NCBI RefSeq assembly: GCF_001719125.1
Contig: NZ_CP017006.1
Coordinates: 2,556,384 to 2,620,383, forward strand
Length of the DNA: 64,000 nucleotides
Direction of reading: 5' to 3'
DNA from: Sulfolobus sp. A20
Lineage (GTDB): Archaea; Thermoproteota; Thermoprotei_A; Sulfolobales; Sulfolobaceae
Shown piece by piece: positions 18,054-53,162 of the stretch (position 1 is the stretch's first letter; each line of letters starts with the position of its first letter). The notes below the pieces were generated by a model. That model searched no databases and was not told the origin of the DNA. It saw nothing but the letters and a program-made list of their open reading frames with translations. The position numbers and the translations under genes are program-made.

Positions 18054-20423
18054 ATGTCAATAAGCAGGGTTCCAAGGATCGTTAACATAACCTCTAGAGT
18101 TCTAAAAATTTTAGGCATATTAGAGACGTTGTTCTTTGGCATATTTATTTTTGCTTATATTGCTCTAACTATAAATAGTAAAATTTATCCCATAATTCCC
18201 ATATACGTGTTAATGCTCTCCTTCTTCTTGGCTATAGCCTCATTTGTATCTGGTAGTCCCAAGTCATTTGGTTATGCAATCTTCTTAAGCTTATTCTTTG
18301 GATCACCTTTTCTAGGAGAGATTCCAAGCATAGCAGGATTGAGTACTAGCCAGGCGGATCTATTTGTAATATTCTTCTTATATTGTTTATTTTTCCCTTT
18401 AATTATGATAAGGTTTGGAGGGAAAAAAGCGTTCATTGGAGCACTTATCGCAACACTATTGATAGCTTTACCAGCCTTTACCTACTCATTAACCCTAATA
18501 CCCTCAGCCTTTAATGTAAACAATTTACCTATTGTGATTTTCCTTAATTATCCTAATCGTGAGGTAGATAACATTGGTTTGTACGTAAGTTTCATGCTTA
18601 TTCTAGGAACTATATTAATAAGCTTCAGAAGAGGTTATAAGACTGGGAGGGCCTTATTTGACATTTTTTTACCATCATTCTTGATCTCTCTCTTCGCCCT
18701 TTCTTTTTCATTAATATACGTGAATAATTCCATTTCATATTCAATTATTCTCCTAATTTTAGCATTACTCACCATTATAACAGTGTTCAGAAGGGGTATA
18801 AAAGGAGTACCTCTTAACTTGATTTCATCAATACCTTCATTTATATTTTCAACTCTTCTGGCTTATGCGGGATATAAGCCATTTCTTTACTTAATAACAC
18901 ATCACCCCTCATTAAGCCTCTTACCTTTACCAGTTTACTTTTCCCCCATACCCTTAGCTTTTCTTTCCCTAGTAGGATTGAATTCCCCTCGTGTAGCTGA
19001 TCCCTCTACTTTAATCGATAAACTGTTTAACGCTCTACGTCAAAGGGATTACAATAGCGCTAGACATTACATATCTCTCCTAAGGACATACAATTTTAAT
19101 CAAAATGACATCTTTTGCAGGGTATTATCGAAAAGAGACTGTAATTCAATCTTATGGATGATGGAGAACTATGACTTAAAGTACGATTATTGCGGTAGGT
19201 TACTCACTAATTCAGTTGATTGTATCATATCTAAGAATACATTACCTTCCTCAACTGATGAGATATTAGATGCATTAGAGAAGATTGATCTGGAGTCAGC
19301 TGAGAAACTAGCTGGATTTATTCTCTCTAAAGGAACAAGGGACATTAGGGCAGAAAAGGCTAAGAAGGTTATAAGTAAATTAATAACTCAACAACAAACT
19401 CCTACTACTATAAATGAAAAAGCACCTCCCTTGGATCAATGGGATCCTAACCTATGGAAGAATAGGGAAATTTACGGTTATTTGGTAGAAGGAGTGTTGG
19501 GGACTGGAGGAACTTCTTATGTCTTGTTAGCTTCTAGAGGCAATGAGAAGTATGCCATAAAAATCCCAAAGTTGTCTTCTGCACAAAAGGAAGCAACTAG
19601 GCAGAGCTTCACTACCTTTGCTGACCTATCCAAGGAATCATCTAATTTACAGAGGATGTCAGAGTCAAATAGCAACATTGTTAGAATCTATGGAATGTTT
19701 ATAGATGTAAATATAATAAAGAGCATAAGCTTAGGTGATACGATATACTATCTTAAGAACCCTCCAGCAATAGTTATGGAATTGATGGAAGGAGGGACCT
19801 TAAACGATTTGATAAAGAGAGGAGAAATAGTGAACTCAAAATATTGGAAGGAGATAGTTAAGGAAGTCTTCATAAGAATTGGTTACGCATTAAGCTATAT
19901 TCACAAGGAAGGTTACGTACATTTAGACATTAAACCTCAAAACATATTCTTCGATAAGTTCCCCGGTAAATTAGGGGAAGAAGTACTTAATAACATAAGA
20001 AATGGGCATGTTAAAGTTAAGTTAGGAGATTTAGGTTCAGCAAAGAGGATAGGAGAGCGTTTCTTTGAGTACACTCCAGACTACTGTCCAATAGATCAAG
20101 TCAGGTCAATATTGATGGGTAGAGGTGCAAATCCCTCAATGGACGTTTACGCATTTGGAGCTTCAATATATAAAGCTTTAACGGGTAGTTCATACAATCC
20201 TATAGAGGTAATTAAATTAATGGATTCAGCGATTGATAGTTACTTAAGAGGAGAAGCGGGTTTTCTATCTTATTTGGATCAAGCTGAAGTAATATATAGG
20301 AACTACTACGGCAAACTCCCGCTAAGTATACCAGATGTGTATAAAAAAATAATAATAATGGCAACTAACCCTGAACCTAGCAAAAGACCAACGATTGATG
20401 AGATATTAAAGATGCTAGCATAA
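18054..20423 (+). CDS. Membrane-anchored Ser/Thr protein kinase
   Basis: A 789-aa protein in two halves. Residues 1-330 contain about ten hydrophobic segments; a cytosolic linker of helical repeats (residues 335-450) follows. A Hanks-type kinase domain fills residues 475-789: glycine loop LGTGGTS (481-487), lysine in YAIKIPK, catalytic loop HLDIKPQN (about 621-628), a DLG replacing DFG (about 659), then SMDVYAFGASIYKALTG and a C-terminal NPEPSKRPTIDEIL. All catalytic residues are present, so it should be active, phosphorylating Ser/Thr from a membrane position. A paralogue of its C-terminal half is the broken gene at 50606-51078 next to the tubulin-like operon. A TATA-like CTTATATTTATA lies only 6-17 bases before the ATG, so the true start is not certain. 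Confidence 0.9.
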   Translation: MSISRVPRIVNITSRVLKILGILETLFFGIFIFAYIALTINSKIYPIIPIYVLMLSFFLAIASFVSGSPKSFGYAIFLSLFFGSPFLGEIPSIAGLSTSQADLFVIFFLYCLFFPLIMIRFGGKKAFIGALIATLLIALPAFTYSLTLIPSAFNVNNLPIVIFLNYPNREVDNIGLYVSFMLILGTILISFRRGYKTGRALFDIFLPSFLISLFALSFSLIYVNNSISYSIILLILALLTIITVFRRGIKGVPLNLISSIPSFIFSTLLAYAGYKPFLYLITHHPSLSLLPLPVYFSPIPLAFLSLVGLNSPRVADPSTLIDKLFNALRQRDYNSARHYISLLRTYNFNQNDIFCRVLSKRDCNSILWMMENYDLKYDYCGRLLTNSVDCIISKNTLPSSTDEILDALEKIDLESAEKLAGFILSKGTRDIRAEKAKKVISKLITQQQTPTTINEKAPPLDQWDPNLWKNREIYGYLVEGVLGTGGTSYVLLASRGNEKYAIKIPKLSSAQKEATRQSFTTFADLSKESSNLQRMSESNSNIVRIYGMFIDVNIIKSISLGDTIYYLKNPPAIVMELMEGGTLNDLIKRGEIVNSKYWKEIVKEVFIRIGYALSYIHKEGYVHLDIKPQNIFFDKFPGKLGEEVLNNIRNGHVKVKLGDLGSAKRIGERFFEYTPDYCPIDQVRSILMGRGANPSMDVYAFGASIYKALTGSSYNPIEVIKLMDSAIDSYLRGEAGFLSYLDQAEVIYRNYYGKLPLSIPDVYKKIIIMATNPEPSKRPTIDEILKMLA

Positions 20424-29641: not shown

Positions 29642-29881
29642 ATGGGAAGAACACAGCCATCGTTTACTAAAGTGATTGATGATGAGTTAAATAAGTTATC
29701 TAGACTCTCTAAGAGATTAAGTTACCCTTGCTTTGATGAAGTGATCTTAGAAGCCTCTAAGAGGATTAGATATTTCCAGAGCGCTTTATATGATGAAGTA
29801 TCCGACCCACAAGAAATCGTTTTTCTAGCGATCATCTCAGTATTGGCTGAGAGAGTATGTAATAAGAGTGATGAAGTCTGA
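29642..29881 (+). CDS. Small protein of the PolB2 operon
   Basis: A 79-aa helical protein (MGRTQPSFTKVIDDELNKLSRLSKRL...), predicted as a compact helix bundle. It is the first gene of a three-gene unit with the PolB2-type polymerase and a RadA-like protein, and its stop overlaps the longest possible frame of the polymerase. In Sulfolobus this operon is known to be induced by DNA damage. The exact role of the small subunit is unknown; a DNA-binding or polymerase-binding helper is likely. Confidence 0.8.
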   Translation: MGRTQPSFTKVIDDELNKLSRLSKRLSYPCFDEVILEASKRIRYFQSALYDEVSDPQEIVFLAIISVLAERVCNKSDEV

Positions 29882-29906
29882 TACGTTCACAAGACGGGGG
29901 TTTGTA

Positions 29907-31619
29907 ATGGAAGGCTACGTGGTTGATGCCGTTCCATCTTATAATAGCGTTGAGCTAGTTTTAGATAACTTCAGAAGGGTTAAGGTGAAAACAACTTTCC
30001 CGATTTATGTTATGACTGATAATCCCGAGAGGATAACTGAACATCCATCGGTAATAAGTTATGAGGAAGAGATTTGGAGGGATTTGAGTGGTAAGGAAGT
30101 AAAGTTATATAGGTTTGAGTTAACTGACCTGAACGCTTATTATTACATAAGAAAGAGGGTTAAAACAGTAAATGAATTGCCAACGGTCATGTCTCAAGTT
30201 CTGAATAGACTTAACGCTTTACCCTTTAGGAAAGTTAGCATAAGTAAGAGAGGGATTGAGTTAATACAAGACGACTTGTCCTTTCCTGACATAATTTACG
30301 CTAGTGTTATAACTAAAGACTGGTATGGTAAATCCTTTTACGGTAAAAAATACGTTGCTAACGTGAATGGTAAGACGTTTGAAGGAAAGGTGGATGAATT
30401 GGACTTAACGGTAGACGTTGCGGAATGTTATGGAATAGCTTGTAAAAGTGTTAAGGCTTCAGTCCTAATAACGAGTAAGAGAGCTCCTGTTTCAGTAAAG
30501 GGATTAATAGAGTGGTCTTTACTTAGTAAGACTTTAATAAGGGAATTGAAAGATGCAACAATAGGCAAAGCTTTAACTACTAATGAAACCTGGGTAGCGT
30601 TTAAGAGAAGGATTATAATTCCTAACGTAGTTCCCAGGGTGGAAAAGGTAAGGACTATAGAGGAGTTGAAGAGTGTTGATAAAGGTGGTTTAATTCTATT
30701 CCCTAAAATCGGTTGTTATAATAACGTTTCTCAACTGGACTTTTCTTCAATGTACCCCTCGCTTATAGTTAAGTATAATATTTCAGCTGAAACTGTTGAT
30801 AAGTGTAATGATGTATTGACCGAGATTGGGCATAGTATCTGTTTGAAGGAAAAGGGAATAGTGCCAGAGGCTTTGGAATGGTTAATAAAGAGAAAAGAGG
30901 AGTTGAAGAGAATAGATGAGGAGAGAGCAGAGGCTGTAAAGTGGATTTTAGTAGCTTCCTTTGGTTACTTAGGCTATAGGAATTCAAAGTTCGGTAAGAT
31001 AGAGGCTTACGAATTAGTGACTTACTTCGCTAGGAAGACGTTAAGAAAGGCTATTGAATTAGCTAAGGAGTATGACTTAGAGGTACTTCACGGGATAATA
31101 GATTCGTTAATAGTTAGAGGGGATAAGGTAGAGGATTATATGAAGAGAGTTGAGGAAGTCACCGGGCTTAAGATGAAGAGGGATGATATGAATTGGGTCA
31201 TTTTCTTTCAGAACAGAAAGGGAATGTCTTACCCAATGAGATACTTAGGTAAGCTAAAGAAGGGGGAGATGAAGGTTAAGGGGATGATAAGGGAGAACAT
31301 GCCAAACGTAATAAAGGATTTTTTGAGAGATGCTGTTGAAGTTTTATCTAAAGCTGATACTTGCGAGGAAATAGATGTTAGTAAATTAATTGCTTTACGC
31401 GACGAGTATAGGAAGAGAATAGCATTAAGTAGGGATCCGACTGATTACGTCTTATGGGTTAAGGATAATCCATTAGTTAGAGGAGTTAGGGGATTCTATG
31501 ACGCTAGGAGAGGTTATATGGGAAGAGACGTTGATTACTATTTAAACTACTTAGATAGAGTTTACCATGATTTATTGGGTGGTATTATTGGCATTAATGA
31601 CTGGATTCCAAATTATTGA
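29907..31619 (+). CDS. PolB2-type B-family DNA polymerase with altered active site (Dpo2)
   Basis: A 570-aa polymerase lacking a recognisable 3'-5' exonuclease domain and much shorter than replicative B polymerases (about 850-900 aa). Motif A is kept (LDFSSMYPSLIVKYN, near 30735). Motif B is degenerate (KWILVASFG instead of KxxxNxxYG). In motif C the usual YGDTDS reads HGIIDS (near 31090): the first Asp is lost, the second is retained. This is the hallmark of the archaeal 'inactivated' PolB2 group, linked in Sulfolobus to damage tolerance and targeted mutagenesis. ATG 29907 is chosen (MEGYVVDAV, with GGGGG 7-11 bases upstream); GTG 29868 is an alternative adding 13 residues. Confidence 0.9.
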   Translation: MEGYVVDAVPSYNSVELVLDNFRRVKVKTTFPIYVMTDNPERITEHPSVISYEEEIWRDLSGKEVKLYRFELTDLNAYYYIRKRVKTVNELPTVMSQVLNRLNALPFRKVSISKRGIELIQDDLSFPDIIYASVITKDWYGKSFYGKKYVANVNGKTFEGKVDELDLTVDVAECYGIACKSVKASVLITSKRAPVSVKGLIEWSLLSKTLIRELKDATIGKALTTNETWVAFKRRIIIPNVVPRVEKVRTIEELKSVDKGGLILFPKIGCYNNVSQLDFSSMYPSLIVKYNISAETVDKCNDVLTEIGHSICLKEKGIVPEALEWLIKRKEELKRIDEERAEAVKWILVASFGYLGYRNSKFGKIEAYELVTYFARKTLRKAIELAKEYDLEVLHGIIDSLIVRGDKVEDYMKRVEEVTGLKMKRDDMNWVIFFQNRKGMSYPMRYLGKLKKGEMKVKGMIRENMPNVIKDFLRDAVEVLSKADTCEEIDVSKLIALRDEYRKRIALSRDPTDYVLWVKDNPLVRGVRGFYDARRGYMGRDVDYYLNYLDRVYHDLLGGIIGINDWIPNY

Positions 31620-32172
31620 TAGGATAATTGAGAAGGACGAGATAGTGGAGTTTTACTCCATTGACGAGAGGTTATTATATAACTTTTATCACAGGGTAAT
31701 TGTACTCTCCTCTCCAGTGAACGTAATAATTATAGGAGAGAGGGGAGGGATTGACCCATTGCTGATTGAAAGGTTTAGGAGAATATTTGAGAAGAGTGAT
31801 GAGATATTCATTAGGAGAGCCTTTAAGGTTGAGGATGTTAGACCAACTGTTGAGGCTATGGGAAAGGGGGACCTGATATTGATTAATCCTTACCATCATG
31901 GTAAAAATTACACTGAGATAGTAGGTGCTATAAGGAGAAAGGCGTTTAATAGAGAGGAGAAAATTTTCATATTCAGTAACGTGGATAGAAGAGTTAAAGG
32001 GTCTACATTTGGTCTTCACTCTGCTAACTCTGTTATCGAATTAAAATCCACTAAAAGAGGTTTTATTGCTAAGATAGTCAAGAGCGTTATCGCTAAAGAA
32101 GTTGAGATACCTTATGGTTTTTGGGATATTTATGGTAAATATGATGATGGTTTAATGAAATGGCTATTATAA
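31597..32172 (+). CDS. RadA/RecA-like protein without Walker A
   Basis: A 191-aa protein translated in overlap with the polymerase end (polymerase stop 31617-31619). The C-terminal half carries the RecA-core signature FSNVDRR...STFGLHSANSVIELKSTKRG..AKIVKS, typical of archaeal RadA paralogues. The N-terminal half has no GxxxxGKT, so it should not hydrolyse ATP. ATG 31597 (MTGFQIIDRI) is preferred because the upstream ATG 31567 would add a hydrophobic stretch and overlaps the polymerase by 17 codons. In the PolB2 operon it may recruit or modulate the polymerase at damaged DNA. Confidence 0.82.
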   Translation: MTGFQIIDRIIEKDEIVEFYSIDERLLYNFYHRVIVLSSPVNVIIIGERGGIDPLLIERFRRIFEKSDEIFIRRAFKVEDVRPTVEAMGKGDLILINPYHHGKNYTEIVGAIRRKAFNREEKIFIFSNVDRRVKGSTFGLHSANSVIELKSTKRGFIAKIVKSVIAKEVEIPYGFWDIYGKYDDGLMKWLL

Positions 32173-38923: not shown

Positions 38924-39874
38924 TTAAGGAGGATACCAGATTATATTATAATTCATTCCTACTGTTGGCTCAAATAACTCAAGAACAAGTTTATCCTGCT
39001 TCTTGTCAAAGTTATGATAACAGTCGACTTTTACTTTATCCATAGGTTGGTCCGAATGAAGGTACAAGAAGCTAGCTATCTCCGTAAATTCATACTTAAA
39101 TCCCTTAGGAAAAGTCATCTCTATTAAGGCTCTTAAGGTAGGTCCTCTTATCATTAACCCCTCTGAGCTAAAGGGTGCACCATATCTCTTTATAGCTTCA
39201 TCTTTCGTTAAAGCATAATGATTTTTAATTTTTAATCTATATCCGAATGAGATGAATTCCCCTACCTCTAAGGGTGGGTCAAAAATTGCCTTCAATTCCA
39301 TAACTTCTGGGTTAATTTTGATTCTTTTGATTACAACTTTTCTATCCGAGAAGTTCCTTATTATTTCATTTTTGATATAGGCTCTAAGATAATCCAATTG
39401 TTTCACTGAAGGCCATTTACCCTTCTTCCCCCAGATCTTTAGGAAGAGGTTCAATTCTTTCACCGGTCTTAATGCTATTCCATTATATATAGTCTCTGAT
39501 AGTCTTGTCCCAGAAGGATACATATAAGTATATTTTGAGATCATAAGATACATTAAGTCAAAATCACCAATCACTGTACTTCCACCTTCTTCCCTCAAAA
39601 CTTTTAGCTTTTTCAATCTTCTAACTAGATCACTTTGCCAATTCAAAGGACTTCCTTTATTTACCTTAATAATTATGTCCATATAGTCTCTTGCTTCATC
39701 TACTAAGTCTTTCGCCTCATTCAAGGAACCTAAGTAACAATATTCCGTTTTTTTAGTATAGGGATTGTAATGACTCAAATAAAGATACTCCTTGTTATTT
39801 ATAACTCTCCTTATCACGGAAGTACCGATTTTACCGCATCTACTGCATACTGTCATTCTATCTCTCAGTTCCAT
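38924..39874 (-). CDS. Zinc-finger protein with a C-terminal beta domain shared with the tubulin operon
   Basis: A 316-aa protein starting MELRDRMTVCSRCG; the CSRCG pair and later YCYLG suggest a zinc-binding head. The middle (residues 60-190) is helical and basic. The C-terminal 120 residues (PPLEVGEFISFGYRLKIKN..RGPTLRALIEMTFPKG..KLVLELFEPTVGMNYNIIWY) match the C-terminal domain of the third tubulin-operon protein (SVGEVVKFGYYIWN..APTLKYEIKVFLPYN..FEIVMQYVDYGIYGVSYSF). ATG 39874 is chosen because the TATA-like element at 39904-39915 places transcription start just upstream; ATG 39892 or 39856 remain possible. Function unknown. Confidence 0.75.
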   Translation of the reverse strand: MELRDRMTVCSRCGKIGTSVIRRVINNKEYLYLSHYNPYTKKTEYCYLGSLNEAKDLVDEARDYMDIIIKVNKGSPLNWQSDLVRRLKKLKVLREEGGSTVIGDFDLMYLMISKYTYMYPSGTRLSETIYNGIALRPVKELNLFLKIWGKKGKWPSVKQLDYLRAYIKNEIIRNFSDRKVVIKRIKINPEVMELKAIFDPPLEVGEFISFGYRLKIKNHYALTKDEAIKRYGAPFSSEGLMIRGPTLRALIEMTFPKGFKYEFTEIASFLYLHSDQPMDKVKVDCYHNFDKKQDKLVLELFEPTVGMNYNIIWYPP

Positions 39875-40189
39875 GAAACAAAGTATGGTCATGGTAACTT
39901 TAAATTATAATATAGCAAATTCATGTATTACTATATATATGTCAGATCGTTATTTTTCTATAAAATTAAGAGAATAAAAGAGGAATATTTTGATTCAGTG
40001 TAGGGAATTTCAGAAGTTAAAACACTAGTAGCTTATACAATCAGTAACAATCTTATAAAATATTCAATCTTATTTTCCATCTTTTTTAATATACTTTGAT
40101 ATTTTAGTTTTATTGTACAATTAACTGTCTGATTCCTTTATTTTTCCAGATAAAGTGAAAACACTATAATTTAATTATCTAGGAGGGGT

Positions 40190-40990: not shown

Positions 40991-43377
40991 TCATTTTCTC
41001 TTCGAGAGTAAAATAATTATTGCACTAATGGTAACTAATGCAACTATACTTATAAAAACGATATTGTAAGGCAATGACTTAGAGCCAAGGGTGCTAGACT
41101 TAGTTTGAGTTGTTAAACTTCTGGATTGAGAAGTTACGGAAGAGGTGTTGATGTTTTTTTGAGTATTTGTTTGAGTAGTAGAACTGTTCTTCTGATAATT
41201 TCCTTGTGTGTATACTGTTTCTCGCATATAGACGTAAGCGTACGCTATTTCCCCTTTTTCGTTTACCCCATATAAGGAGACGCTTAAAGTCATGTTTCCA
41301 CTTATGTTAAATTTTATTGGGAGCTCCATCAGCTTACTTCCATTCTGACTTAAAGTGAAATTATACTCAGTTCCATTAACTATGTATTTTCCGTCCACGG
41401 TCATCGATATAGTCAGTTTTACGTTCTCTGACGCATTACCTAAATTCTTTGCTATTATCCGTAGAGTATAAGTACTACCTTGTATCAGCCTCTTTACTAC
41501 AGAACCATTAGATAAGAAGGATATGTTAAGTATAGGCCTAAAGAGTTGAGGAGTGAATAATACCCTTATTGTGGAGTTATTATCAAGCTTTATATAACCT
41601 TTCTGGACTTGAGGAGTGTAACCAACTGTATAGTTAATACTATAGCTTACGTTTGATATTAAATAGTAATAATCTCCCTTTGTAACGTAGAATGTGATAG
41701 AAGAGGAGTTGCTGGCCTTAGTAGTACCATTGAGGGTAACTGACCACGTGGAGTTTTGCGGAAGACCTTGTTCAACAAAGGTCAAGGAATAGATCAGAGG
41801 CATAAAGCTAATATTTACGTAGGAGGAGACCAAAGTGTCATTAACCTCTATCTCATAACTGCCGTATGGAAAAGTGCTGTTCGGAGATGACGGGAATGAA
41901 ATTAAAGTAGTATTGTAAAGTCCAGAGGAAGACGTATTAACTAACTTCTCAACTACCTTTTCACCGTGTGGGTTAAACAACTTTATATCAACTTCTGAGT
42001 CTGGTATAGCTTTTCCGCTTAACAACAATTTCTCACCTGGGTTGAACACATATGCATTTAATTTAATGGTGGGAACCACATTTAATGGTATGTACATCTG
42101 TTGGTTATACGTTGTTTGTGTCCCTCCTAAATACAATGTACTTGCGTAGATCATAACCCCATATACCCCATTACCGTTTTTATCTGTTAATGAAAGGGGT
42201 GGAATAGACAAAGTTGTTGTAGAGTTTTCACGCAGTCTTAACGAGATTTGCTTAAGAATTATACCATTTGAGTTGATAAAGGCTATGGAAACGTAGGTCC
42301 TAGTCAGAGAGTGAAGGCTCAAAGTTCCATTAATTACTCTTACCTTAACTAATGTTGGACCATAATTACTACCTCCAATACTTGGTATATAACCCGGGGC
42401 TTGATATGTACCATATAAAGGATAATATCCCTCTGCAGGAGTAGAGACTACAGCAGACAGACCGTCTTGGATTAACAATGAATCGTTGGGTATACTACTG
42501 TTTTGCAAATGTCCCTCAATGCCCCAGAAAGGTATGGAACTCGCTGAAGTTGCGTTGCCATTCCACCAATTCTCACCAATCCCATTCACTATGAAATATA
42601 ATCCATTTGGCTTAATCCAAGTACCATTAACCTTAAAGAGCATCATAATGGGAACCTCGACCAGGTTGGTTATATTGTAGCTGGCTGAAAAAGCAGTTAA
42701 CGTCTCTATACCAAAGTCCTCACCACCGTTAGCATAAGTAGTCCCAGTGTGTATGTAACCTGGTAGACCGGGTTCAACAATTGGGGTACCATTAACCAAG
42801 AAAGCCCAATCCCCATTACCTACGTAAACCATAGTAAAGTTGTAAATAACGCCAGAGACTAGTGGGTAGTTAAAGTCTGTCCCACCAGGGCTACCGAAAT
42901 AGTTGGAAAATATGCCCCAGCCCGCGTGAGATACGTTGTCGTAGCTTTCAGACCAATCATTAAAGCCAACTTGTGCCCACCAGAAGTTTGTGGAATTATA
43001 GAATCCCTCCCCTATCCAAATAGCTAAAGGAGTTGGTGCGGTATAGTTTGGAGCCTTTAGAATAAGTGACATCCCAGTGTTATTTGGAGGATTTGAAGAT
43101 GGTCCTATATTCACTGCAAATTGGGGAGGTAATGTTATTAAGGAAGCTGTAAAGTTAGTGATAGGGGCGTTGTAAAGATTGTAAGCGAAGAGCGCTATAG
43201 TAGATCCGGGGTTATCAAGAATTATCCTCAACTCCTGCCCATTCGAAACAAAGTCTACATAACTATAGCTTAACGCCCTTGATGTTGCCACATAGTTGAA
43301 AGGGGGTCCTTCTATAGTCCCGTTGTATATAAGCTTTGACCCTTGATATATGGTAATGTTTAACGTACCATTGTAAA
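40991..43377 (-). CDS. Surface protein, C-terminal part of a frameshifted gene
   Basis: About 790 codons downstream of the frameshift near 43378-43390: VYNGTLNITIYQGSK..., a lectin-like beta domain (WIGEGFYNSTNFWWAQVGFN...DWAFLVNGTP), then several Ig-like beta-sandwich repeats (about residues 330-650 of this part), a Gln/Thr/Ser stalk and a final helix YNIVFISIVALVTISAIIIL with KRK tail. The protein would be exported and anchored at the cell surface. It continues the upstream 43360-43890 frame: adding one base within AGTTTAGAG restores a single protein of about 965 residues. Confidence 0.8.
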
Positions 43378-43890
43378 CTCTAAACTTAGCCCTAACGTAC
43401 CATTAGGTACAGGCTGGAGTATCTGGGTAGATTTATTTGGTAGAACCCCCCTATAAGGGGAGTAAAATATCGAGATTGGATAACCCTTACCTGGTTTCGC
43501 CCCTTTCTGTATCACAGGTGGAGAAGACTTACATGTTGGAGTATAGTAGGGTGATAAGAGGGTAACTGTGACCGAGGCTGAGGCGTTAAGCCCATTAGAC
43601 TGATGGGCAATGACCACTATATGATACGTACCATACTTTGAATATATGTGAGAGGCCGGAAACCAACTTGTAGTAATATTTCCATCACCCCATGACCACG
43701 TGATTGAGGTTATTGTACAACTGTTTCCTCCCGGTAATGCTACTCCGTTTATGGTTACTTCAGTTCCGTTAATTTCAGGCTCTCCTAGGGATATGGTTGG
43801 TGGGGAACAATTACCTTGTGATTCAGAGATTAAAGAAAATAGCGATAACATTAGAATTAAAAGTATGAGAAGTATAGGGATTTTTTTCAA
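43360..43890 (-). CDS. Surface protein, N-terminal part (signal peptide plus PKD domain)
   Basis: Residues 1-26 are a signal peptide (KKIPILLILLILMLSLFSLI). Residues 30-115 form a PKD domain (ITWSWGDGNITTSW..HIYSKYGTYHIVVIAH). The frame ends shortly after the point where homologous reading continues in the next frame (LGLSL / RVYNGTLN). A single missing base in AGTTTAGAG at about 43385 explains it. Either a real pseudogene-making mutation, a sequencing error or a phase-variable site; the run is only three T's, so slippage is not obvious. Confidence 0.8.
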   Translation of the reverse strand: MKKIPILLILLILMLSLFSLISESQGNCSPPTISLGEPEINGTEVTINGVALPGGNSCTITSITWSWGDGNITTSWFPASHIYSKYGTYHIVVIAHQSNGLNASASVTVTLLSPYYTPTCKSSPPVIQKGAKPGKGYPISIFYSPYRGVLPNKSTQILQPVPNGTLGLSLEFTMVR

Positions 43891-44037: not shown

Positions 44038-44832
44038 TTACTTTAATTCATTTGAGTGGTCTTTGTTAGTGTGAAAGCTATACGATACTCCATATATTCC
44101 ATAATCAACGTATTGCATTACTATCTCAAAGTGGTTGTTACTTTGGTTTAAGGAATATGATCTCAAGATAGGTGCTCGAACTACTATGTTGTCGTTAACA
44201 TACATGTATCTTTCCATATTTATGGACTCTATTTTCATATTATACGGTAAAAAGACCTTAATTTCATATTTTAAAGTAGGTGCATATATCCAAGAGTAAC
44301 TTTCATGTACTTCATTATCCCCTTCTTTTTCTAGCTTATTCCATATATAGTATCCAAATTTTACTACCTCACCTACTGAGGCTGAGCCAAGATTAACTTC
44401 TCCATTGATTAAATTAGATAATCTCTTCACTGAGACCTTTGCAGAGATATCATTAGGTTTCATTAATTTATCAGACGTGAGTATCTCTGCTTTTCTCTTT
44501 TTAATTTTCACCACGCCTTTATTTGGAGTATAATGAAGAAATGAAATTTTTTCACAATCCTCATCCATTATCATGGTTAACAAAGATATTGACTCCGTAT
44601 ACATCAATTCTTTTTTAGACTCATGGACTTTTATGAGGTCTGAGTACTTGAGTATTATAAACTTATATGATACGTTCATGAAATAACTTCCTTTATCCTT
44701 GCTAACTATGCCTTGATTTATAAAGTAGTGTAACAACTCATTACTAAGCGTGAGCTTATTTTTTCTAACAGTTTTATTTTTGAAAAAATATGATAAGTTT
44801 TTTATTAGATTCTGATTTATTTTATCTGCCAT
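44038..44832 (-). CDS. Third protein of the tubulin-like operon
   Basis: A 264-aa protein. The N-terminal 75 residues (LTLSNELLHYFINQGIVSKDKGSYFMN) resemble a winged helix. The C-terminal 130 residues form a beta-rich domain with VGEVVKFGYYIW, YAPTLKYEIKVFLPYNMKI and IVMQYVDYGIYGVSYSF, shared with the zinc-finger protein at 38924-39874. No membrane helix. It starts 18 bases after the stop of the 769-aa gene and is the last gene of the operon. The role is unknown, but the domain sharing suggests a sensor or adaptor for the tubulin-like complex. Confidence 0.78.
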   Translation of the reverse strand: MADKINQNLIKNLSYFFKNKTVRKNKLTLSNELLHYFINQGIVSKDKGSYFMNVSYKFIILKYSDLIKVHESKKELMYTESISLLTMIMDEDCEKISFLHYTPNKGVVKIKKRKAEILTSDKLMKPNDISAKVSVKRLSNLINGEVNLGSASVGEVVKFGYYIWNKLEKEGDNEVHESYSWIYAPTLKYEIKVFLPYNMKIESINMERYMYVNDNIVVRAPILRSYSLNQSNNHFEIVMQYVDYGIYGVSYSFHTNKDHSNELK

Positions 44833-44850
44833 GTTACCAACTCTGTAAGG

Positions 44851-47160
44851 TCATTGAGTAATCGGTTTTCTTTCGTAGACATATATATATATTCCTAGTA
44901 TTAAATTAATTAAGTAAATTACTTTAATAATATTAATTACGTAAGTAGGAGGTCCAAATGCGATACTTGTGACTATAAAGAGTGCGGCGTAAAATATTAC
45001 TATCCCTTCGCCTATTATACTATAATCTGGTCTATTACTAAATGTAAGACTGAAGAGAACTAACCCTATTATAAAGATACCCAATCCAAAGATGAGGAGA
45101 TGCAGACTAATAGAGATCCATAAAATTGACCCAATTAAAGTTAAGAAAATACCTAGTCCCCCAGCAGTTGTAGGCTTACTCAAATCATTTTTAGGAGTTT
45201 TTTCAGGTTTAGGGATAGGCTGAGTACCAGTGATAGGGGATGTATTATTATATTCTCCTTGATTAGCCCCCTGAGGTTTTTCCGTTTTCATTTTTTGTTG
45301 ATTTTTAGTTTTTTCTGGTGCCTTCTCCTCAAACCAGATTAGATCAACAGAGGCTAAAGTATTCAAGTAGAACATCGTCATTCTTATAGCTAAATTATCA
45401 TCACTAATACCAAAACTTTTCTTAACATTATTTACAACGTCAACTACCGAATCCCCATCTTTAATAACACTCCACATTTGATATATTGGAGGTAAAGTTC
45501 TCACTACTCTAGTATCACTCTCGAAGTCATATTGCTCTGAATTTTTTATCATCGAGATATTTACTTCTCTCTTCCTAACTACCTTAGATGAGATAGTTGT
45601 ATAATCCAGTTTTTCAGGATTAGGTGGCTCCCCCTTTACCACTTTAATTAACATAGTTGATAATCTATCAATAATCTTATCATCCCTTAACTTATTAATA
45701 ACATCATTTAGGTTTACTAGATCGTTTATTAAGGTCGTATAATCTCTAATGTTCTCCAGCCTGTCTAAAAGCTTAACCGTATCACTGTATTCTGGATATC
45801 CTGCTAAGTATATCATCATCGCTTTGGAGGATAAAATTTTCTTAAACATCTTCACTATGTCCTCTGTTGTATATTTAGTTTCCATAGAGAGTAAAACGTA
45901 ATTATATAAGCTGCTAATTGCTCCAGCTACAGTGGTCTCGTTTGTATAAACCTGCCTTGAAATATCATTTAGAATCTGAGTACGATCATAAATTTCCCAG
46001 CAACTTAAGCTCTTGATACGTTGACTTCCCGTTCCTATTCCTAAAATGGAGGAGCTTATTCTCAATCTATCCTCATAAGGTATCTTCAATATTAAATCCT
46101 TAACTAGCTTTGTATCATTATTATACAAATCTAAGGCATCCACGATACTAAAGAAGATAAAAAAGAGTAAATCTGCCATATAAGCTTGGAGTAAACTTAG
46201 TTGTCCTCCATTAGTTAGAATACTCTCTAGCTTCTTAATATCCTTATTTTGTAAAACATTTATTAGAGTGTTTACTGTAGTAGTTAGTGCAGATCGAAAG
46301 TCTGTATACGATATAGCGTTAAAAGTGTTTTGAGGGATAAGGTTTAAGAAATCGCTCGTATGATCCTTAATATAATACAATATTTTTCGAGTAGAATCCC
46401 ATAAATATTGCTCGAGTTTGCTCAGGTGTTCAACAGAATCCCTATTTGCGTTAACTTCTACCGGAAAGAACCCTAGATAGATACACATGTCACATAAGAA
46501 CCTTGCCACATCTCTCAATATTCGAGCAGAATCCCTAAGTGATTGTATTGAACCTGGGTTCAATAAAACTTCGTTTACCGTTCTTATGGCATCTCCTATA
46601 TCCCCAAACCGATTATTATAGTTTACCTTCTCTGCGTAGTACTGGAAAAAATCCCTTGAAACCTTGTTGACTGCGTTGTAGGAATACCTTATTTTAGCCA
46701 CATAATAAGCAAATGAAAGAAGTCTTGAGGGAAAATTGTAATCCGCGTTATTGTATGGATCTGTATAAAGTTGAGTGCAGTCTTTATTCAAAACTATAGG
46801 GAACTTTGATTGGTTATAGTAACCTACAATTGTAGAGCATTCCTCACTTAACTTTCTCTCTAAGTCAGCAGCGAGACTTTGGGAAGTTTTTTCCAAAGCT
46901 CTAATATCGAATCTGTCAGATAACACCCTCTCCAATGTTCTTAGACCTCCACGTCTAGTTGTTAATTGTTTAGCTATGCTCAACATTAGTTGGTACTCGG
47001 TGATCACATTAAATAACTTTTCTTGATCATTAATAAATTCTCTATATTCTGAGAAATTTTTAACAAAATCATTAAGCCCTTTTAAAATAAAAAAACCCCT
47101 TTCTGCTCCACTTTTTTTAAAATATTCCAGTAAAAGCGATTCTGGATCCCTTTCTGGCAT
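44851..47160 (-). CDS. Large partner of the tubulin-like GTPase, membrane-anchored C-terminus
   Basis: A 769-aa protein. Residues 1-500 are mostly helical with no known motif. A winged-helix-like segment, DGDSVVDVVNNVKKSFGISDDNLAIRMTMFYLNTLASVDLIWF (about 555-600), follows. Then comes a Lys/Pro/Gln-rich linker (APEKTKNQQKMKTEKPQGANQ) and three to four membrane helices (residues 665-760). Thus the bulk is cytosolic, tethered at the C-terminus. It begins 7 bases after the stop of the tubulin-like gene and is surely co-translated. It is probably the main partner or regulator of that GTPase. Confidence 0.8.
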   Translation of the reverse strand: MPERDPESLLLEYFKKSGAERGFFILKGLNDFVKNFSEYREFINDQEKLFNVITEYQLMLSIAKQLTTRRGGLRTLERVLSDRFDIRALEKTSQSLAADLERKLSEECSTIVGYYNQSKFPIVLNKDCTQLYTDPYNNADYNFPSRLLSFAYYVAKIRYSYNAVNKVSRDFFQYYAEKVNYNNRFGDIGDAIRTVNEVLLNPGSIQSLRDSARILRDVARFLCDMCIYLGFFPVEVNANRDSVEHLSKLEQYLWDSTRKILYYIKDHTSDFLNLIPQNTFNAISYTDFRSALTTTVNTLINVLQNKDIKKLESILTNGGQLSLLQAYMADLLFFIFFSIVDALDLYNNDTKLVKDLILKIPYEDRLRISSSILGIGTGSQRIKSLSCWEIYDRTQILNDISRQVYTNETTVAGAISSLYNYVLLSMETKYTTEDIVKMFKKILSSKAMMIYLAGYPEYSDTVKLLDRLENIRDYTTLINDLVNLNDVINKLRDDKIIDRLSTMLIKVVKGEPPNPEKLDYTTISSKVVRKREVNISMIKNSEQYDFESDTRVVRTLPPIYQMWSVIKDGDSVVDVVNNVKKSFGISDDNLAIRMTMFYLNTLASVDLIWFEEKAPEKTKNQQKMKTEKPQGANQGEYNNTSPITGTQPIPKPEKTPKNDLSKPTTAGGLGIFLTLIGSILWISISLHLLIFGLGIFIIGLVLFSLTFSNRPDYSIIGEGIVIFYAALFIVTSIAFGPPTYVINIIKVIYLINLILGIYIYVYERKPITQ

Positions 47161-47167
47161 ATCTCTC

Positions 47168-50100
47168 TCACCCTCTTATTCTCATCCCTTGAGTCTCTTC
47201 CCTAAAATTATTTAGGACATTGAAAAGATCATCACAACTCCTGCTTAACCTATCTACGTAATTTATCAAGTTTTGAGCTATATTAGATAGGTAGTAGTCT
47301 GTAGTTTTCTTTTTGAGTTCATTCAACTTAGTTATGTAGTCTTTAGCGTATTTCTGTCTAATATCCTCTAATAACTGTAACGTATCAAACGTGAGTTTGT
47401 TTATATCTTCGATTGCCCTATTAACATTTTGATTGTTCACAGTTTCATTTTTCTCTCTTATATTGTTGAATATTTCAGCTGAAGGTAGTTTAACATTAGA
47501 GACTCTGTCAATAGCACTCCTTATTTTCGGAAGATCTATGTTAGTTGAACCATTTTCCAGGCTTCTTATAGCGTTGCTTAGCTCTAGCATTATATTCCTC
47601 AAGTCATTGTTGATACTCTTAATGCCACTATAAACGTATGACAAATCAATGATTCCCCATATATCTATATAGTATAACGTGGGGTCAAAGTTACTCCAAA
47701 AATCAGCTATTTTTCTCACCGCTTCTGATTGTATCGTATTGCCAATTCCGATATTGGTTATATTCTCAAATGCTTCTAAGTCGTCATAGAAGAGAGTATG
47801 ATGAAATATCATCTCTTCAGGTCTGTTGTCTTTCATTTCCTTATAGGATCTTTCTAGATAAGTTAAGTCTCTTAGAATTGGTTGTTCCTTACTGCTTATT
47901 TTCCACACGTATATGCCATTTATTATGTGATATGTAGATATATCAAACCTCTTGTATTGTATGTACCCTTTTTTGAACGTAGGATTAATGGCCTTACTTT
48001 GCAATCCATCTCTTATCGCTCTGTCATTCGGGAACTCATTTACTAATATGTTTTCATCGGACGAAGTGGTTACCATAAGGGCGGTAACTAATGGTGGAGA
48101 TGAAACTACATCTTGACCTCTGTCATCTTGACCTCTGACGTTTCTAATTAGACTGGGATTATGCTCTGAAATGAAATTCTTAGCATCTGTAGTAACGTTT
48201 AACGGAAGGTTTATCCTCGTATAATCAATGTTTAACATTGTTAGACCAATTTCACCTAGGGGAGACCTGAGATGTGATAGAGCCCTACTGAACTCATCCC
48301 TTCTTTGGGATAAAACTTCATAGAGGAAAGTTCTCTCGAGTGGATAGTTAAAGTTTTCTAAATTTGGTACTCCAAATACGTACTGTATAGAGGATGCAGG
48401 AGGATTCTTTAGGAACACCTCCTCAGATTTCACTGTAGAGTTAAACTCATTAATTCTTCTCTCTATCGTGTTTTTGTTTGGACCTTCTTCTGTAGAGCTC
48501 ATTAATCTATTATACGGAGTTTCTAAGTTACTAGGACCATAACTACCTCCCTCTTCTATTGAAGCCCTCCATAGGAGGAGATCTTTATGCATATTACTTG
48601 TTATTGAACTCCATTTCCTATAGACCTTAGTAATTAGCGAGTTAAGGTCTTCTATCAGCGTATTAATCTCATTTTCTAAGTTTGAAGTATTAGCCTTATA
48701 TTTGGATATATCATCACGGATCTCAGCCAAGAGCCTAGTTAATCTTGTGTATCGGTCATTTATCTCATTTGAGATACGTATCCCAATATTCTTATACCAC
48801 GATACTCTAGATGCAGGAAAATATATATCATATCTACTAAATGTTAAGAACGAATTGGGTGCTAAATTTACGTTTGTCCTAATATCATCTAAATCAAAAG
48901 TATCCGTGTAACCGGCTCCTCCAGGTTGAATATTGATGTTATTGGGCCTTGCCTCCCTCACACCAGACGTACCTATATCAGACAAAAATCTAGCTAACCC
49001 TATTCTTATATTCTCGTCAACATCCTTCTCTGGTCTGTCCCTGCTAATTAAGAAAAATGCTAAAAACGGATTCGTAACATTATTCTCCTCATCAGCCCTG
49101 GCCCCACCATTGCTTAATATAAATTGCATCTCTTTCATAGCTGCCATTGCATTTATGTGGAATATAGCTCCCTCTTCAGATCTAGGTAGTACACCAAATC
49201 CCAACACGTAAGGGTCGTTTACTCGAGTCGTCTCTCTTAATTTCTCTAACAAATCTCTAGTGAAATGTATGAAAGAGCCCGATCCTGTACCTCCCCCCAG
49301 AGAAGTTAACACTATTAAAAGTACTCTCGGAGTCATAGTCCTATTTATAAGAGCTGTTAACCTCATAGCGATATCTTGCATTAAAGCATCCTTAACTGTA
49401 TTATACATGGCGAAACCTACAGCTCTCCTGTTTCCCGCCCCTTGAATGTAGCTTAGACTGAACCCTGCCAACCAAGGATTATGATTTACTATGTTATTCG
49501 CAGAAAGTAGCTCAAAGTTATCGAACGTGTATAGAAGGTTTTCTACGACAGTCCCTTTATATGCGTTCCTAAGGTCTGATATATTAGCTTGGTTAGTGTC
49601 AAAAGCTACAAAAAGGAAAGGATTATCTGTATTTTCCCTAATAGATCCTTGAGACAACAAGTAGTCTATAAAACCCCTAAGTAAAGCAGTCCCTACACCT
49701 CCTAGTCCCACTACGACATAATTTATGTTTGGTCTGACCACATCTGGCATTTCAGGCTTATTATCTAAAGAGGTAATGATTAGATCGGGATTCCTTAAAG
49801 CTGTGTTATATAGCTCTGTTGCCTTATTAATGTTATCGATTACTTCCTTTATCTCATTCTGAGAAGTATTAAGTTTAGAGTTTATTTCCTGATAGGCTTG
49901 TTGAACCGATGTAATCTTTAAAGATATCTCCTGGTATCGCTTACTTAGATTATTAAAATTATGATATTTCCTAAGATACATCAACACGGGAATAATTCCT
50001 AAAATTACTAATGCAATGAAAATAGCCATGTAAAGTAAAGAGTAGAATCCTTTATTCGATTCATAAGCGTTATTAATTATGTTATAGAGAGGAGGAATTA

Positions 50101-50323
50101 TGAGAGGAGAGTTTGCAATAGAATATGCCAGCGAAATTATTAGATTAATTATCGTTATCACTTGTTCCCTCGTGGTAAGCTCCTCTGTAAGTAGCCATAA
50201 CACAACATATTCCACTATCATTAATATTGCAATAGTAAATCCAATAATAGATAGACCAACCGGATTAAACAATGTACTCAGCACTAACATTACTTCTAAA
50301 TTCCCAAATATACCAATACTCAT
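47168..50323 (-). CDS. Membrane-anchored tubulin/FtsZ-like GTPase
   Basis: A 1051-aa protein. Three membrane segments (about 10-46, 55-85, 94-117) are followed by a coiled coil (125-175). The tubulin-like nucleotide-binding domain begins with NYVVVGLGGVGTALLRG (201-217), then FVAFDTNQANISD (238-250), and the tubulin signature GGGTGSG at 343-349 followed by FIHFTRDLLEKLRE and VLGFGVLPRSEEG. This fits the 'Tubulin-like' (Tubulin_2) family, distinct from FtsZ and CetZ, and unlike them carried on a membrane anchor. The C-terminal 500 residues are helical/coiled. Start ATG 50323 has GGGGGTGT five bases upstream. It heads a three-gene operon; a broken kinase lies upstream. Confidence 0.88.
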   Translation of the reverse strand: MSIGIFGNLEVMLVLSTLFNPVGLSIIGFTIAILMIVEYVVLWLLTEELTTREQVITIINLIISLAYSIANSPLIIPPLYNIINNAYESNKGFYSLLYMAIFIALVILGIIPVLMYLRKYHNFNNLSKRYQEISLKITSVQQAYQEINSKLNTSQNEIKEVIDNINKATELYNTALRNPDLIITSLDNKPEMPDVVRPNINYVVVGLGGVGTALLRGFIDYLLSQGSIRENTDNPFLFVAFDTNQANISDLRNAYKGTVVENLLYTFDNFELLSANNIVNHNPWLAGFSLSYIQGAGNRRAVGFAMYNTVKDALMQDIAMRLTALINRTMTPRVLLIVLTSLGGGTGSGSFIHFTRDLLEKLRETTRVNDPYVLGFGVLPRSEEGAIFHINAMAAMKEMQFILSNGGARADEENNVTNPFLAFFLISRDRPEKDVDENIRIGLARFLSDIGTSGVREARPNNINIQPGGAGYTDTFDLDDIRTNVNLAPNSFLTFSRYDIYFPASRVSWYKNIGIRISNEINDRYTRLTRLLAEIRDDISKYKANTSNLENEINTLIEDLNSLITKVYRKWSSITSNMHKDLLLWRASIEEGGSYGPSNLETPYNRLMSSTEEGPNKNTIERRINEFNSTVKSEEVFLKNPPASSIQYVFGVPNLENFNYPLERTFLYEVLSQRRDEFSRALSHLRSPLGEIGLTMLNIDYTRINLPLNVTTDAKNFISEHNPSLIRNVRGQDDRGQDVVSSPPLVTALMVTTSSDENILVNEFPNDRAIRDGLQSKAINPTFKKGYIQYKRFDISTYHIINGIYVWKISSKEQPILRDLTYLERSYKEMKDNRPEEMIFHHTLFYDDLEAFENITNIGIGNTIQSEAVRKIADFWSNFDPTLYYIDIWGIIDLSYVYSGIKSINNDLRNIMLELSNAIRSLENGSTNIDLPKIRSAIDRVSNVKLPSAEIFNNIREKNETVNNQNVNRAIEDINKLTFDTLQLLEDIRQKYAKDYITKLNELKKKTTDYYLSNIAQNLINYVDRLSRSCDDLFNVLNNFREETQGMRIRG

Positions 50324-50365
50324 GTGTACACACCCCCTTTTATTTAAGAATTATATGAGAACCGT

Positions 50366-50378
50366 AATATAAATATAG
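50366..50378 (-). promoter_or_regulatory. Probable TATA box of the tubulin-like operon
   Basis: AATATAAATATAG (sense CTATATTTATATT) lies 43-55 bases before the ATG, leaving a leader of about 20 bases that contains the GGGGGTGT ribosome-binding site at 50329-50336. The rest of the 280-base gap upstream holds nothing recognised. Confidence 0.45.
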
Positions 50379-50605
50379 CTTTCATAAAAGAGTTCCAAAT
50401 TACGTAAAATTGGAACTAAATTATCGTCTAAGATTTACTTCGGAGTTACTTTAGTGGCAATGTATATCTTTAATATTACTGTGCTTATAGTTACCTAAAT
50501 AAAACTTACCTAATAACCTTAAATGATATTTACTTAAAACTAAATTAATGATGTTTAGATTTCATTCATATATTTGAAGATTGTTGAACTGCCTCACCTT
50601 AGAAT

Positions 50606-51078
50606 CTAGAGTAGGCTTATGATATAATCCATTCTAGGTCTCTTACTAGGATCTGGATTAGTAGTGAGCAAAATAACCTTTCTAAAATTATCTGGATAAG
50701 CGGAAAGAGAGGCTATTAACCCACCACTATAATATCTCATGTACTTCTCCTCAGCTTCCTTCAAGATACTCAAGAACCTACTCCCATTCCTCACATAATC
50801 ATCTAAAGCATCATCCATCAACTTAACCAACTCTGGGGATTAAAAGACCTCCTAGTCAAAGCCGTGTAAAGAGAAGCCCCAAAAGAGAACACATCCATTG
50901 ATGGGTCAGCCCTACCAACTATCATAGCCTTAACTTGATCAATAGAACAATACTGCGAAGTATACTGAGTAACCCTCTCCCCAACCCTCCTAGCAGAACC
51001 CAAATCCCCCAACTTAACCTCAGCATTACCATTAACCAAACTATTATAAACCTCCTCACCAGTCCCACCCAAAGGCTT
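50606..51078 (-). pseudogene. Ser/Thr kinase gene, C-terminal half, broken
   Basis: Encodes GGTGEEVYNSLVNGNAEVKL, GDLGSARRVGERV..SQYCSIDQVKAMIVG, SMDVFSFGASLYTALTRRSFNP and, after a one-base frameshift near 50829, LVKLMDDALDDYVRNGSRFL up to NPDPSKRPRMDYIISLL. This parallels residues 640-789 of the kinase at 18054-20423 closely. The N-terminal half is missing: an IS6-family element starts at 51081. So two lesions, a frameshift and an insertion/deletion. The gene reads toward the tubulin-like operon and probably belonged to it. Confidence 0.85.
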
Positions 51079-51080
51079 AC

Positions 51081-51692
51081 GTGTGTGGACAACAATTTCA
51101 TCCACCCCCATATTCCAACTTATGCTAATGGATTTCGAGTAAATTGTGTTGTAGAAGAATATTTTTAGCCATCTCGTTATTGTGTTTCTTGTTGAGTTCC
51201 ATGTGAAGTCCATAATTGCTTTAGGCTTCTGAACACTTACTAAGCTTGCCAAAAGTTTCAACATCATGTTTTAACCAAGAGAATACCTTATAGCCTTATC
51301 GTGTAACTTTATCCCTCCAATTCTCAAGCTTAAGCGTGGAAACTACATGAGGAATTAGCCCAGACTCGTAATGCCTAACAACCCACCTCACCATTAACCC
51401 TCATCAACGAGCAAACGATCCCATGCTTAATATCAAGCTTAAGCTCATAATTAACATTAGCCAACTTATGAAGAGCAAGGTAGTGTGAGGTAATGAAGTC
51501 CTCAACTTGACAAGTAAGATGTTAAGGCTAATACAATCTCGTCCAAGGAATGAAACCTAGGCTTAAAAGGACAATTTGGGAAATCAAACCTGTTCATCTT
51601 CTTGCCATAATAAATAACTCGCCCTCACCCCAAAAACACTTTTCCACAATAAAGAAAATTCAATTTATATAAAAAACAGATCGTTGCACACG
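51081..51692 (-). mobile_element. IS6-family degenerate copy (about 612 bp) inside the kinase gene
   Basis: Left end GTGTGTGGACAACAATTTCA at 51081. The transposase start (ATGAACAGGTTTGATTTCCC on the minus strand, near 51590) and C-terminal codons are present but interrupted by stops. The right end is decayed (ATCGTTGCACACGC, ending about 51692). No kinase sequence was found beyond it up to 52015, a stretch with no recognised gene. Confidence 0.8.
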
Positions 51693-52015
51693 CATGAATT
51701 ATATGTGAAAAACTTGTTTAATGATCTCAACTTAAATGAGTTCAATATTGTTTCATATCGAACAAAGAAGTCTTCGATGATATGTTTTAGCTTGTAAGTA
51801 ATTTTAAGGAGGTGGTCACTTCCTTTTATACTCGAAAACATCGTTCCAACTAAAAAAATAATATGTGTTTTCAAGTATAAAGAGTGAGGTGTCGTTAATG
51901 TGAGAATAACGCTATTATTTTGAATTAACCGAATCTAATATTTAAAAGCGATTACTATGATATCTCTTTTTTAAATCAACTCATATATGTAGTATTGTTG
52001 TAAATGCAGAAAAAA

Positions 52016-52236
52016 GTGTGTATGGACAACAATTTGGTTGTTTTGATATGAATTGAATTTTCTTTAAAAGTATTTTGTGTGAGGCAACTCATCTATTGAG
52101 GCGAGAAGATGAATGGGCTTAATTTCCTAGTACTTAACTCAACGAGAAACACAATAGCAAGATGGCTTATTCTTCTGCAATATACTCTAAATCCATTGAA
52201 TAAATAAAATTTTACAGTTAGATGAAGTCCACACAC
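52016..52236 (+). mobile_element. IS6-family deletion derivative (MITE-like, 221 bp)
   Basis: Left end GTGTGTATGGACAACAATTT, right end ...GATGAAGTCCACACAC with decay. Flanks AGAAAAAA and AGAAAGGT may be a mutated 8-bp target duplication. It sits just before the remaining MarR-like codons, so it probably also hit that gene. Confidence 0.8.
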
Positions 52237-52344
52237 AGAAAGGTAACGCAAAAGGAGATGTTAACTAGGCCACTTATAACCCAACCGACTCTAAGTGACT
52301 CGATAAATAATTTGATTAAAAAGGGATATTTATCGCCTACGCAG

Positions 52345-52352
52345 ATTAGAAG
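52345..52352 (+). repeat. 8-bp target-site duplication, left copy
   Basis: ATTAGAAG directly before the IS6 left end. The same eight bases occur at 53155-53162 directly after its right end, as expected for an IS6-family insertion. Confidence 0.9.
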
Positions 52353-53154
52353 GTGTGTGGACAACAATTTGGTTGTTTTGATATAAATTGAATTTTCTTT
52401 ATTGTGGAAAAGTGTTTTTAGGGTGAGGGCGAGTTATTTATGGGGGTGAGAATATCAATAGGTTTGATTTCCTCGCCCTCACCCAAATTATCTCTACCCT
52501 TTTAAAGTATATAAGTGTTAAGCCTAGGTTTCATTCCTTGGATGATATTGCATTAGCCTTAACCTCTTACTTGCTAGGCTTGTCAAGTTGGAGGACTTTA
52601 TTACCTCACACTACCTTGCTCTACTATTTTCACAAGTTGGCTAATGTTAATTATGAGGTTAAGGTTGATGTTAAGCGTGGGGATTATTTGCTCGTTGATG
52701 AGACTAAGGTTTTGAGGGTTAATGGTGAGTATTACTACTTATGGGTTGTTAGGCATTACGAGTCTGGGCTTGTTGTGTTCTTCATGTTGACTAGTCTTAG
52801 GAGTGGTTTCCACGTTTATGTGATATTAAATGGTATTAAGCTTGAGAATTGGAGGGATAAGGTTATCTTCCTACACGATAAGGCATCAGTCTACAAGGCA
52901 TTCTCTTGGTTCAATGCAAAACACGAGGTTGAAACTTTTGGCAAGAGAAGCTTAGTAGAACTAGTTTTTAGGAGCTTAAAACATAGGCTAGCAAGCATGG
53001 ACTCACACTTCACATGGAACTCAACAAGGAACACAATAACGAGATGGCTAAAAATATTCTTCCTAATCTACAACACAATTTACTCGAAATCTATTAGCAT
53101 AAGTTGGAATAAAATTGAATTTTATGGGGGTGGATGAAATTGTTGTCCACACAC
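52353..53154 (+). mobile_element. IS6-family element, nearly complete (802 bp)
   Basis: 18-bp inverted ends GTGTGTGGACAACAATTT..., flanked by a perfect 8-bp target duplication (ATTAGAAG). It holds the longest transposase frame in the window. Small insertions (near 52470-52515) and a changed start codon (ATCAATAGG where others have ATGAACAGG) set it apart from the consensus, so it may be defective, though the insertion itself is recent enough to keep an intact duplication. It is the likely parent type of at least eight relics here. Confidence 0.92.
52538..53137 (+). CDS. IS6-family DDE transposase, N-terminally shortened
   Basis: 199 codons from TTG 52538 (MDDIALALTSYLLGLSSWRT). The catalytic DDE core is readable: VDETKVLRVNGEYYYLWVV (first acidic pair), FLHDKASVYKAFSWF (second D) and VETFGKRSLVELVFRSLKHR with the final glutamate. 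The usual N-terminus (NRFDFPNCPFKPRFHSLDE in other copies) is damaged: the ATG became ATC and short insertions follow, so the DNA-binding region is shortened. Transposition activity is doubtful. Confidence 0.85.
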   Translation: MDDIALALTSYLLGLSSWRTLLPHTTLLYYFHKLANVNYEVKVDVKRGDYLLVDETKVLRVNGEYYYLWVVRHYESGLVVFFMLTSLRSGFHVYVILNGIKLENWRDKVIFLHDKASVYKAFSWFNAKHEVETFGKRSLVELVFRSLKHRLASMDSHFTWNSTRNTITRWLKIFFLIYNTIYSKSISISWNKIEFYGGG

Positions 53155-53162
53155 ATTAGAAG
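53155..53162 (+). repeat. 8-bp target-site duplication, right copy
   Basis: ATTAGAAG, identical to 52345-52352. It continues the MarR-like frame. Confidence 0.9.

Follow-up and report, generated by a model that had tools for sequence, protein, structure and literature searches.

In the hot-spring archaeon Sulfolobus sp. A20, a putative three-gene operon encodes a tubulin-like guanosine triphosphatase (GTPase) that carries its own membrane anchor. It lies on the minus strand at 44038-50323 of the window, by which we mean the whole analysed stretch of 64,000 nucleotides (contig NZ_CP017006.1, positions 2,556,384 to 2,620,383). As our best explanation, plausible though still tentative, the membrane-fixed GTPase would assemble under the membrane with a partner of 769 amino acids (aa) and organise cell-surface proteins. 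Sulfolobales are a model for tubulin-free division driven by the endosomal sorting complexes required for transport (ESCRT). SSO1376, the only family member that we found reported from this order, is a broken gene, whereas the window copy is intact, and with an intact operon, a tubulin-superfamily branch that has received little study becomes open to functional tests in a cultivable group. If the surface coupling is true, a tubulin-type cytoskeleton would be working with surface proteins and not in division.

A tubulin-type GTPase and its partner genes

The three open reading frames (ORFs) are the following, with transmembrane (TM) segments throughout counted from a hydropathy scan and not by a dedicated predictor.

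47168-50323, minus strand: membrane-anchored tubulin-like GTPase (FtsZl1/Tubulin_2), 1051 aa (ORF, profile match, motifs)
44851-47160, minus strand: 769-aa partner, helical, four C-terminal TM segments (ORF, orthologues)
44038-44832, minus strand: 264-aa protein with a winged-helix-like N-terminus and a C-terminal beta-like domain (ORF, paralogues)

These genes are as tightly spaced as the original prediction, made from the sequence of the window, had described, with gaps of 7 base pairs (bp) between the GTPase and 769-aa genes and 18 bp between the 769-aa and 264-aa genes, and it is from this spacing that we infer one co-transcribed operon. The GTPase gene is the sole Tubulin_2 gene of the whole genome (one contig of 2,688,317 bases). 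Its product matched the Pfam profile Tubulin_2 (PF13809) at residues 203-507, the GTPase core, with an E-value of 5.6e-17 and 62.5 bits (cut-off 27), while the Tubulin profile (PF00091) at residues 203-400 stayed below its cut-off of 33 (E 1.2e-6, 29.3 bits), and neither FtsZ_C nor Tubulin_C was found among the Pfam profiles. Thus, the earlier assignment as a tubulin-type protein that is neither FtsZ nor CetZ holds. Both the T1 motif GLGGVG (residues 206-211) and the T4 motif GGGTGSG (343-349) are kept in the family alignment. When a profile of 17 relatives was compared with solved structures, FtsZ came top (E 3.2e-8) and tubulin-like proteins next, though in a direct profile comparison with Escherichia coli FtsZ the T4 loop alone was aligned. 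Moreover, with the Protein Data Bank entry 3zid (labelled TUBULIN/FTSZ, GTPASE) the match covers no more than about 95 residues, short of the full-length match taken to mark a CetZ. That the product is a tubulin-type GTPase is thus virtually certain.

The N-terminus holds three, perhaps four, hydrophobic segments (residues about 13-118). A coiled coil comes next (122-176, heptad z 4.9), and a second coiled coil (516-575, heptad z 4.7) stands C-terminal to the GTPase domain, with the C-terminal part helical in a low-confidence model. This arrangement agrees with the membrane segments, coiled coil and membrane tethering that had been proposed, and we have very little doubt that the protein is membrane anchored. 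Here, we also noticed a T7-like loop, FDLDD (residues 476-480, within FDLDDIRT at 476-483), which resembles NVDFADVRT of the E. coli FtsZ T7 loop and whose aspartates sit after the predicted helix H7, at the position of the catalytic NxDxxD loop of FtsZ. Asp477 is invariant in the 17 relatives and Asp480 is kept in at least 90%; in a looser set of 25, the counts are 23 and 20, respectively. As aspartates of the T7 loop serve hydrolysis between neighbouring subunits, this conservation suggests, but does not prove, GTP-driven polymerisation, and judging from the sequence the protein probably forms a GTP-dependent polymer.

For the 769-aa partner, the predicted C-terminal membrane helices stood as four TM segments, while the winged-helix part once proposed for it has no profile support. 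Its all-helical character is called from a low-confidence model, and its orthologues in two other genomes of the presumed Saccharolobus group share 32% identity. A hidden tubulin in this partner was tried and rejected (hhalign probability 0.08%). The 264-aa protein, previously taken as a beta-domain protein, does have a beta-like domain at its C-terminus, though its N-terminus is winged-helix-like, a feature common to its paralogues; in the two other genomes, the orthologous gene overlaps the partner gene by 4 bp. Neither protein matched a Pfam family, and a reading of the operon as a defence system was dropped, as none of its three proteins belongs to a PADLOC family.

Among 229 genomes of the class searched with a three-sequence profile, full-length relatives of the GTPase occur in four: the window genome, two of the same genus (G131 and G175), and one from another family of the order (G046; 36% identity). 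In all three copies from the Saccharolobus group, the genes for the GTPase, the 769-aa and the 264-aa proteins are adjacent and in the same order. The expectation that the trio and a kinase stay together was hence borne out for the trio in these three copies, but neither for G046 nor for the kinase. The GTPase genes of G131 and G175 are each split by transposase-sized ORFs, one of which is homologous to an insertion sequence (IS) of the window. Between these two copies, the ratios of nonsynonymous to synonymous substitution rates (0.15 for the GTPase, 0.24 for the partner and 0.24 for the 264-aa protein) point to purifying selection, which would be mostly past since both GTPase genes are now interrupted. 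No match was found in plasmids, and a plasmid origin of the cluster was accordingly rejected; viral relatives were not confirmed, and a search of the named genome collection gave one distant relative only. No intact vWA, kinase, P-loop GTPase or OmpA gene lies next to any of the four copies, and no ESCRT gene is linked in this membrane-anchored subfamily.

Surface-protein neighbours and a sister subfamily

In three of the four copies (G131, G175 and G046), a gene for a signal peptide-ectodomain-TM protein stands beside the GTPase gene, on the same strand in two and divergent in one. These exported proteins show 84% and 31% identity, and that of G175 has an altered annotated C-terminus with the tail in a separate piece. 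A similar association is found in a TM-less sister subfamily from Thermoproteota (loci L032, L034, L037, L039-L041, L045, L046 and L107-L116), whose GTPase core is related (hhalign probability 99%). Here, a homologous signal peptide-ectodomain-TM gene precedes the GTPase gene in 17 of 17 loci, overlapping it or lying within 80 bp in 15 and separated by a 234-bp gap in the other two, and most of the ectodomain proteins have a short cytoplasmic C-terminal stretch with heptad periodicity. The layout recurs in a deep relative, L117, where the ectodomain is of the vWA type: the exported vWA protein (L117:133-1401), which has a single TM segment and a tail resembling a coiled coil, is encoded 18 bp upstream of the Tubulin_2 gene. 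Because the window protein starts with TM segments and then a coiled coil, its anchor resembles this separate-anchor layout in fused form.

The sister loci also contain a conserved protein of about 380 aa, whose gene in most of them has the opposite orientation and sits between those for the GTPase and a polytopic membrane protein. Against solved structures, its profile hit tubulin-superfamily chains only (E 0.006-0.02), and Tubulin is the Pfam family common to most members (7/11, best E 3.8e-4), yet its T4 loop is degenerate, without GGGTGSG. This protein looks like a degenerate tubulin and may serve the Tubulin_2 protein as a non-GTPase partner. Related to it, but even further diverged, is the 343-aa protein encoded in the sister operon of Saccharolobus (hhalign 96%), whereas profile comparisons found no such second tubulin-like protein in the window operon. 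The candidate genes are:

L107:8853-10010
L109:8661-10040
L111:4326-5837
L112:3559-4920
L113:3294-4967
L114:9104-10237
L115:9086-10261
L116:9333-10460
L110:3308-4459
L040:11157-12164
L041:11121-12119

The operon of the window is itself surrounded by the following features.

51081-53155, no strand assigned: IS debris, at the place where the three other copies have the surface-protein gene (IS similarity)
50607-51080, minus strand: 3' fragment of a kinase gene, 475 bp, frameshifted, outside the system (DNA match to another kinase gene)
40991-43890, minus strand: broken surface-protein gene with PKD and MG2-like domains and a C-terminal TM segment (two ORFs, 40991-43291 and 43360-43890), which may or may not belong to the system
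38924-39892, minus strand: neighbouring 322-aa paralogue of the 264-aa protein, likewise not a certain member of the system (sequence similarity)

The broken surface-protein gene sits directly downstream of the operon, and its counterpart in another genus is a single intact ORF of 972 aa (L093:3881-6799). The 322-aa paralogue has an extra cysteine-containing N-terminus, and in other Sulfolobaceae, related genes lie close to those of surface proteins. The IS family of the debris at 51.1-53.2 kb recurs in partial copies at 11.5-11.7, 17.3-17.8, 27.5-27.7, 40.3-40.7 and 54.7-55.2 kb. Elsewhere in the window, a gene resembling B-family DNA polymerases (29868-32172, plus strand) overlaps a gene for a 201-aa protein; in L042, homologues of the two are about 8 kb away from a Tubulin_2 gene, possibly by coincidence.

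Proposed function and alternatives

In the mechanism that we propose, the N-terminal helices of the GTPase would fix it in the cytoplasmic membrane, and the short coiled coil would hold the GTPase domain just below the membrane. Head-to-tail contacts, in which the T7 loop of one subunit completes the GTP site of the next, would then build filaments or patches on the membrane in a GTP-dependent way. The presumably co-translated 769-aa membrane protein would act as a dedicated membrane partner of the GTPase and the 264-aa protein as a soluble adaptor or regulator, with the membrane patch organising cell-surface proteins; the intact neighbourhood would include the surface ectodomain protein, whose loss here is put down to insertion sequences. 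Polymerisation and complex formation are, like the surface-organising role, what we infer, the last because of the surface-protein neighbours and the cyanobacterial precedent discussed below. That the role lies in surface organisation rather than in division or signalling is, in our estimate, quite possible but short of probable. A broader and distinctly speculative idea, which we hold to be rather unlikely, is that some Thermoproteota have a transmembrane tubulin cytoskeleton, with filaments under the membrane coupled via single-pass ectodomain proteins to the surface, the anchor being fused in one branch (that of the window), and separate and accompanied by a second degenerate tubulin-like protein in the other. 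Were this true, the layout would be integrin-like, with a vWA ectodomain in one lineage.

Several observations weigh against the proposed surface-organising assembly. The window genome lacks the surface-protein gene found beside the other copies, retaining short matches to the stalk region only, with IS debris in its place, and so the intact operon may work without the surface protein or may be partly disabled. G046 keeps the GTPase only, and the next gene encodes a different partner (695 aa, four C-terminal TM segments) with no detectable homology to the 769-aa protein (hhalign probability 0.8%). Likewise, homology between the fused and separate anchors was undetectable (hhalign probability 18%), and we do not treat the fused N-terminus as a homologue of the anchor in the sister subfamily. 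Single-sequence AlphaFold models of the GTPase and its 769-aa partner were unusable (predicted local distance difference test scores of 35 and 37). Lastly, Makarova and Koonin could not place T6-H7 in the family and doubted canonical filaments (Makarova and Koonin, 2010; PMC2875224), and the cyanobacterial analogy would draw on a distant family member.

Alternatively, the operon might encode a membrane-remodelling or vesicle machine, as proposed for the FtsZl1 family in 2010 (PMC2875224), perhaps accessory to ESCRT-based division or to the release of extracellular vesicles. This family prediction fits the membrane anchoring and the helical partner with its TM segments, though the genes linked in this subfamily include none for a vWA, P-loop GTPase or ESCRT protein, and because the subfamily is present in only four of the 229 genomes, it is no core division part; on balance, we give remodelling a modest chance. 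Somewhat less favoured, and unlikely in our view, is a non-polymerising, membrane-bound GTP switch or signalling hub, from which the winged-helix-like 264-aa protein would relay a signal to gene expression. The winged-helix-like N-terminus in the 264-aa family, the paralogues beside surface-protein genes, the two broad helical regions and the 2010 doubt on filaments are all consistent with such a switch, but the putative catalytic aspartates of the T7-like loop, which would serve hydrolysis between subunits, are conserved, and the kinase that would favour signalling is a fragment.

A decaying accessory or mobile-element cluster with little current function would account for the patchy distribution, the splitting of two of the four copies by insertion sequences, and the IS debris directly upstream and broken neighbour gene in the window. 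Nevertheless, none of the three genes is broken here and the GTP-site motifs are conserved, the two related copies have been under apparent purifying selection, and the cluster was not found on plasmids, all of which make decay improbable.

The original prediction had placed a kinase gene upstream of the operon and suggested kinase control. Instead, the ORF at 50818-51267 passes from the IS end into sequence for the C-terminal portion of a kinase, which continues in another frame to about 50607. At the DNA level, 50607-51080 is 95.8% identical to the 3' end of a kinase gene that is complete and lies at another place in this genome; the match is bounded by the kinase stop codon and, at its other edge, by the IS end. 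The fragment is a partial, IS-linked duplicate and no regulator of the operon. A part of a second long kinase ORF in the window (an open frame of 804 aa; about 19965-20204, plus strand) is 61% identical to the fragment. Although some euryarchaea and bacteria do have kinases alongside their FtsZl1 genes (PMC2875224), a kinase-controlled tubulin switch is hardly credible here, largely refuted in cis by the frameshifted, IS-bounded state of the fragment and by the lack of any kinase near the other three copies, with kinases of its type also found in related genomes without the GTPase gene.

Comparison with known systems

The operon had been ranked as an undescribed system, which does not apply to its GTPase, as both the family (as FtsZl1) and a predicted crenarchaea-specific, membrane-anchored subfamily were described in 2010 from a broken copy, the transposon-disrupted SSO1376 of S. 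solfataricus, its first crenarchaeal member (PMC2875224). A full-text literature search on SSO1376 gave no further paper, and in the searchable literature we found neither the operon nor its partners, and neither an intact copy nor an association with surface proteins. What is new here is the conservation of the aspartates in the T7-like loop, the surface-protein association and the intact operon, the family itself being known. SSO1376 is probably the IS-split G131 copy (51-53% identity). It shares with the window protein the N-terminal TM helices and, as in FtsZl1 generally, the GTPase domain carrying T1 and T4 together with a coiled coil and helices towards the C-terminus. In contrast, most FtsZl1 members are soluble, and their typical linked genes (vWA, kinase, GTPase and OmpA) are replaced in the window by those for the 769-aa and 264-aa proteins.

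Phototactic motility in Synechocystis depends on the Tubulin_2 protein Sll0445 and on the two neighbours in its cluster, and the three co-fractionate with proteins of pilus assembly (PMC9880817). The Sll0445-Sll0446-Sll0447 cluster is like the window in placing a Tubulin_2 gene in a cluster of three, with a phenotype tied to surface pili; however, the domains of Sll0446 and Sll0447 are FtsA-like and DivIC-like, respectively, while the window partners have no known domains, and the likeness is drawn from descriptions rather than sequences. With FtsZ and CetZ, the window GTPase shares the T1 and T4 fold motifs and a T7-like loop, but differs from them in lacking FtsZ_C and Tubulin_C, in its sub-threshold PF00091 match, and in its own TM segments and long coiled coils. 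The sister subfamily has in common with the window the GTPase core, membrane-associated neighbours and a surface ectodomain protein, and is set apart by its separate upstream anchor, its polytopic partner and its degenerate second tubulin-like protein.

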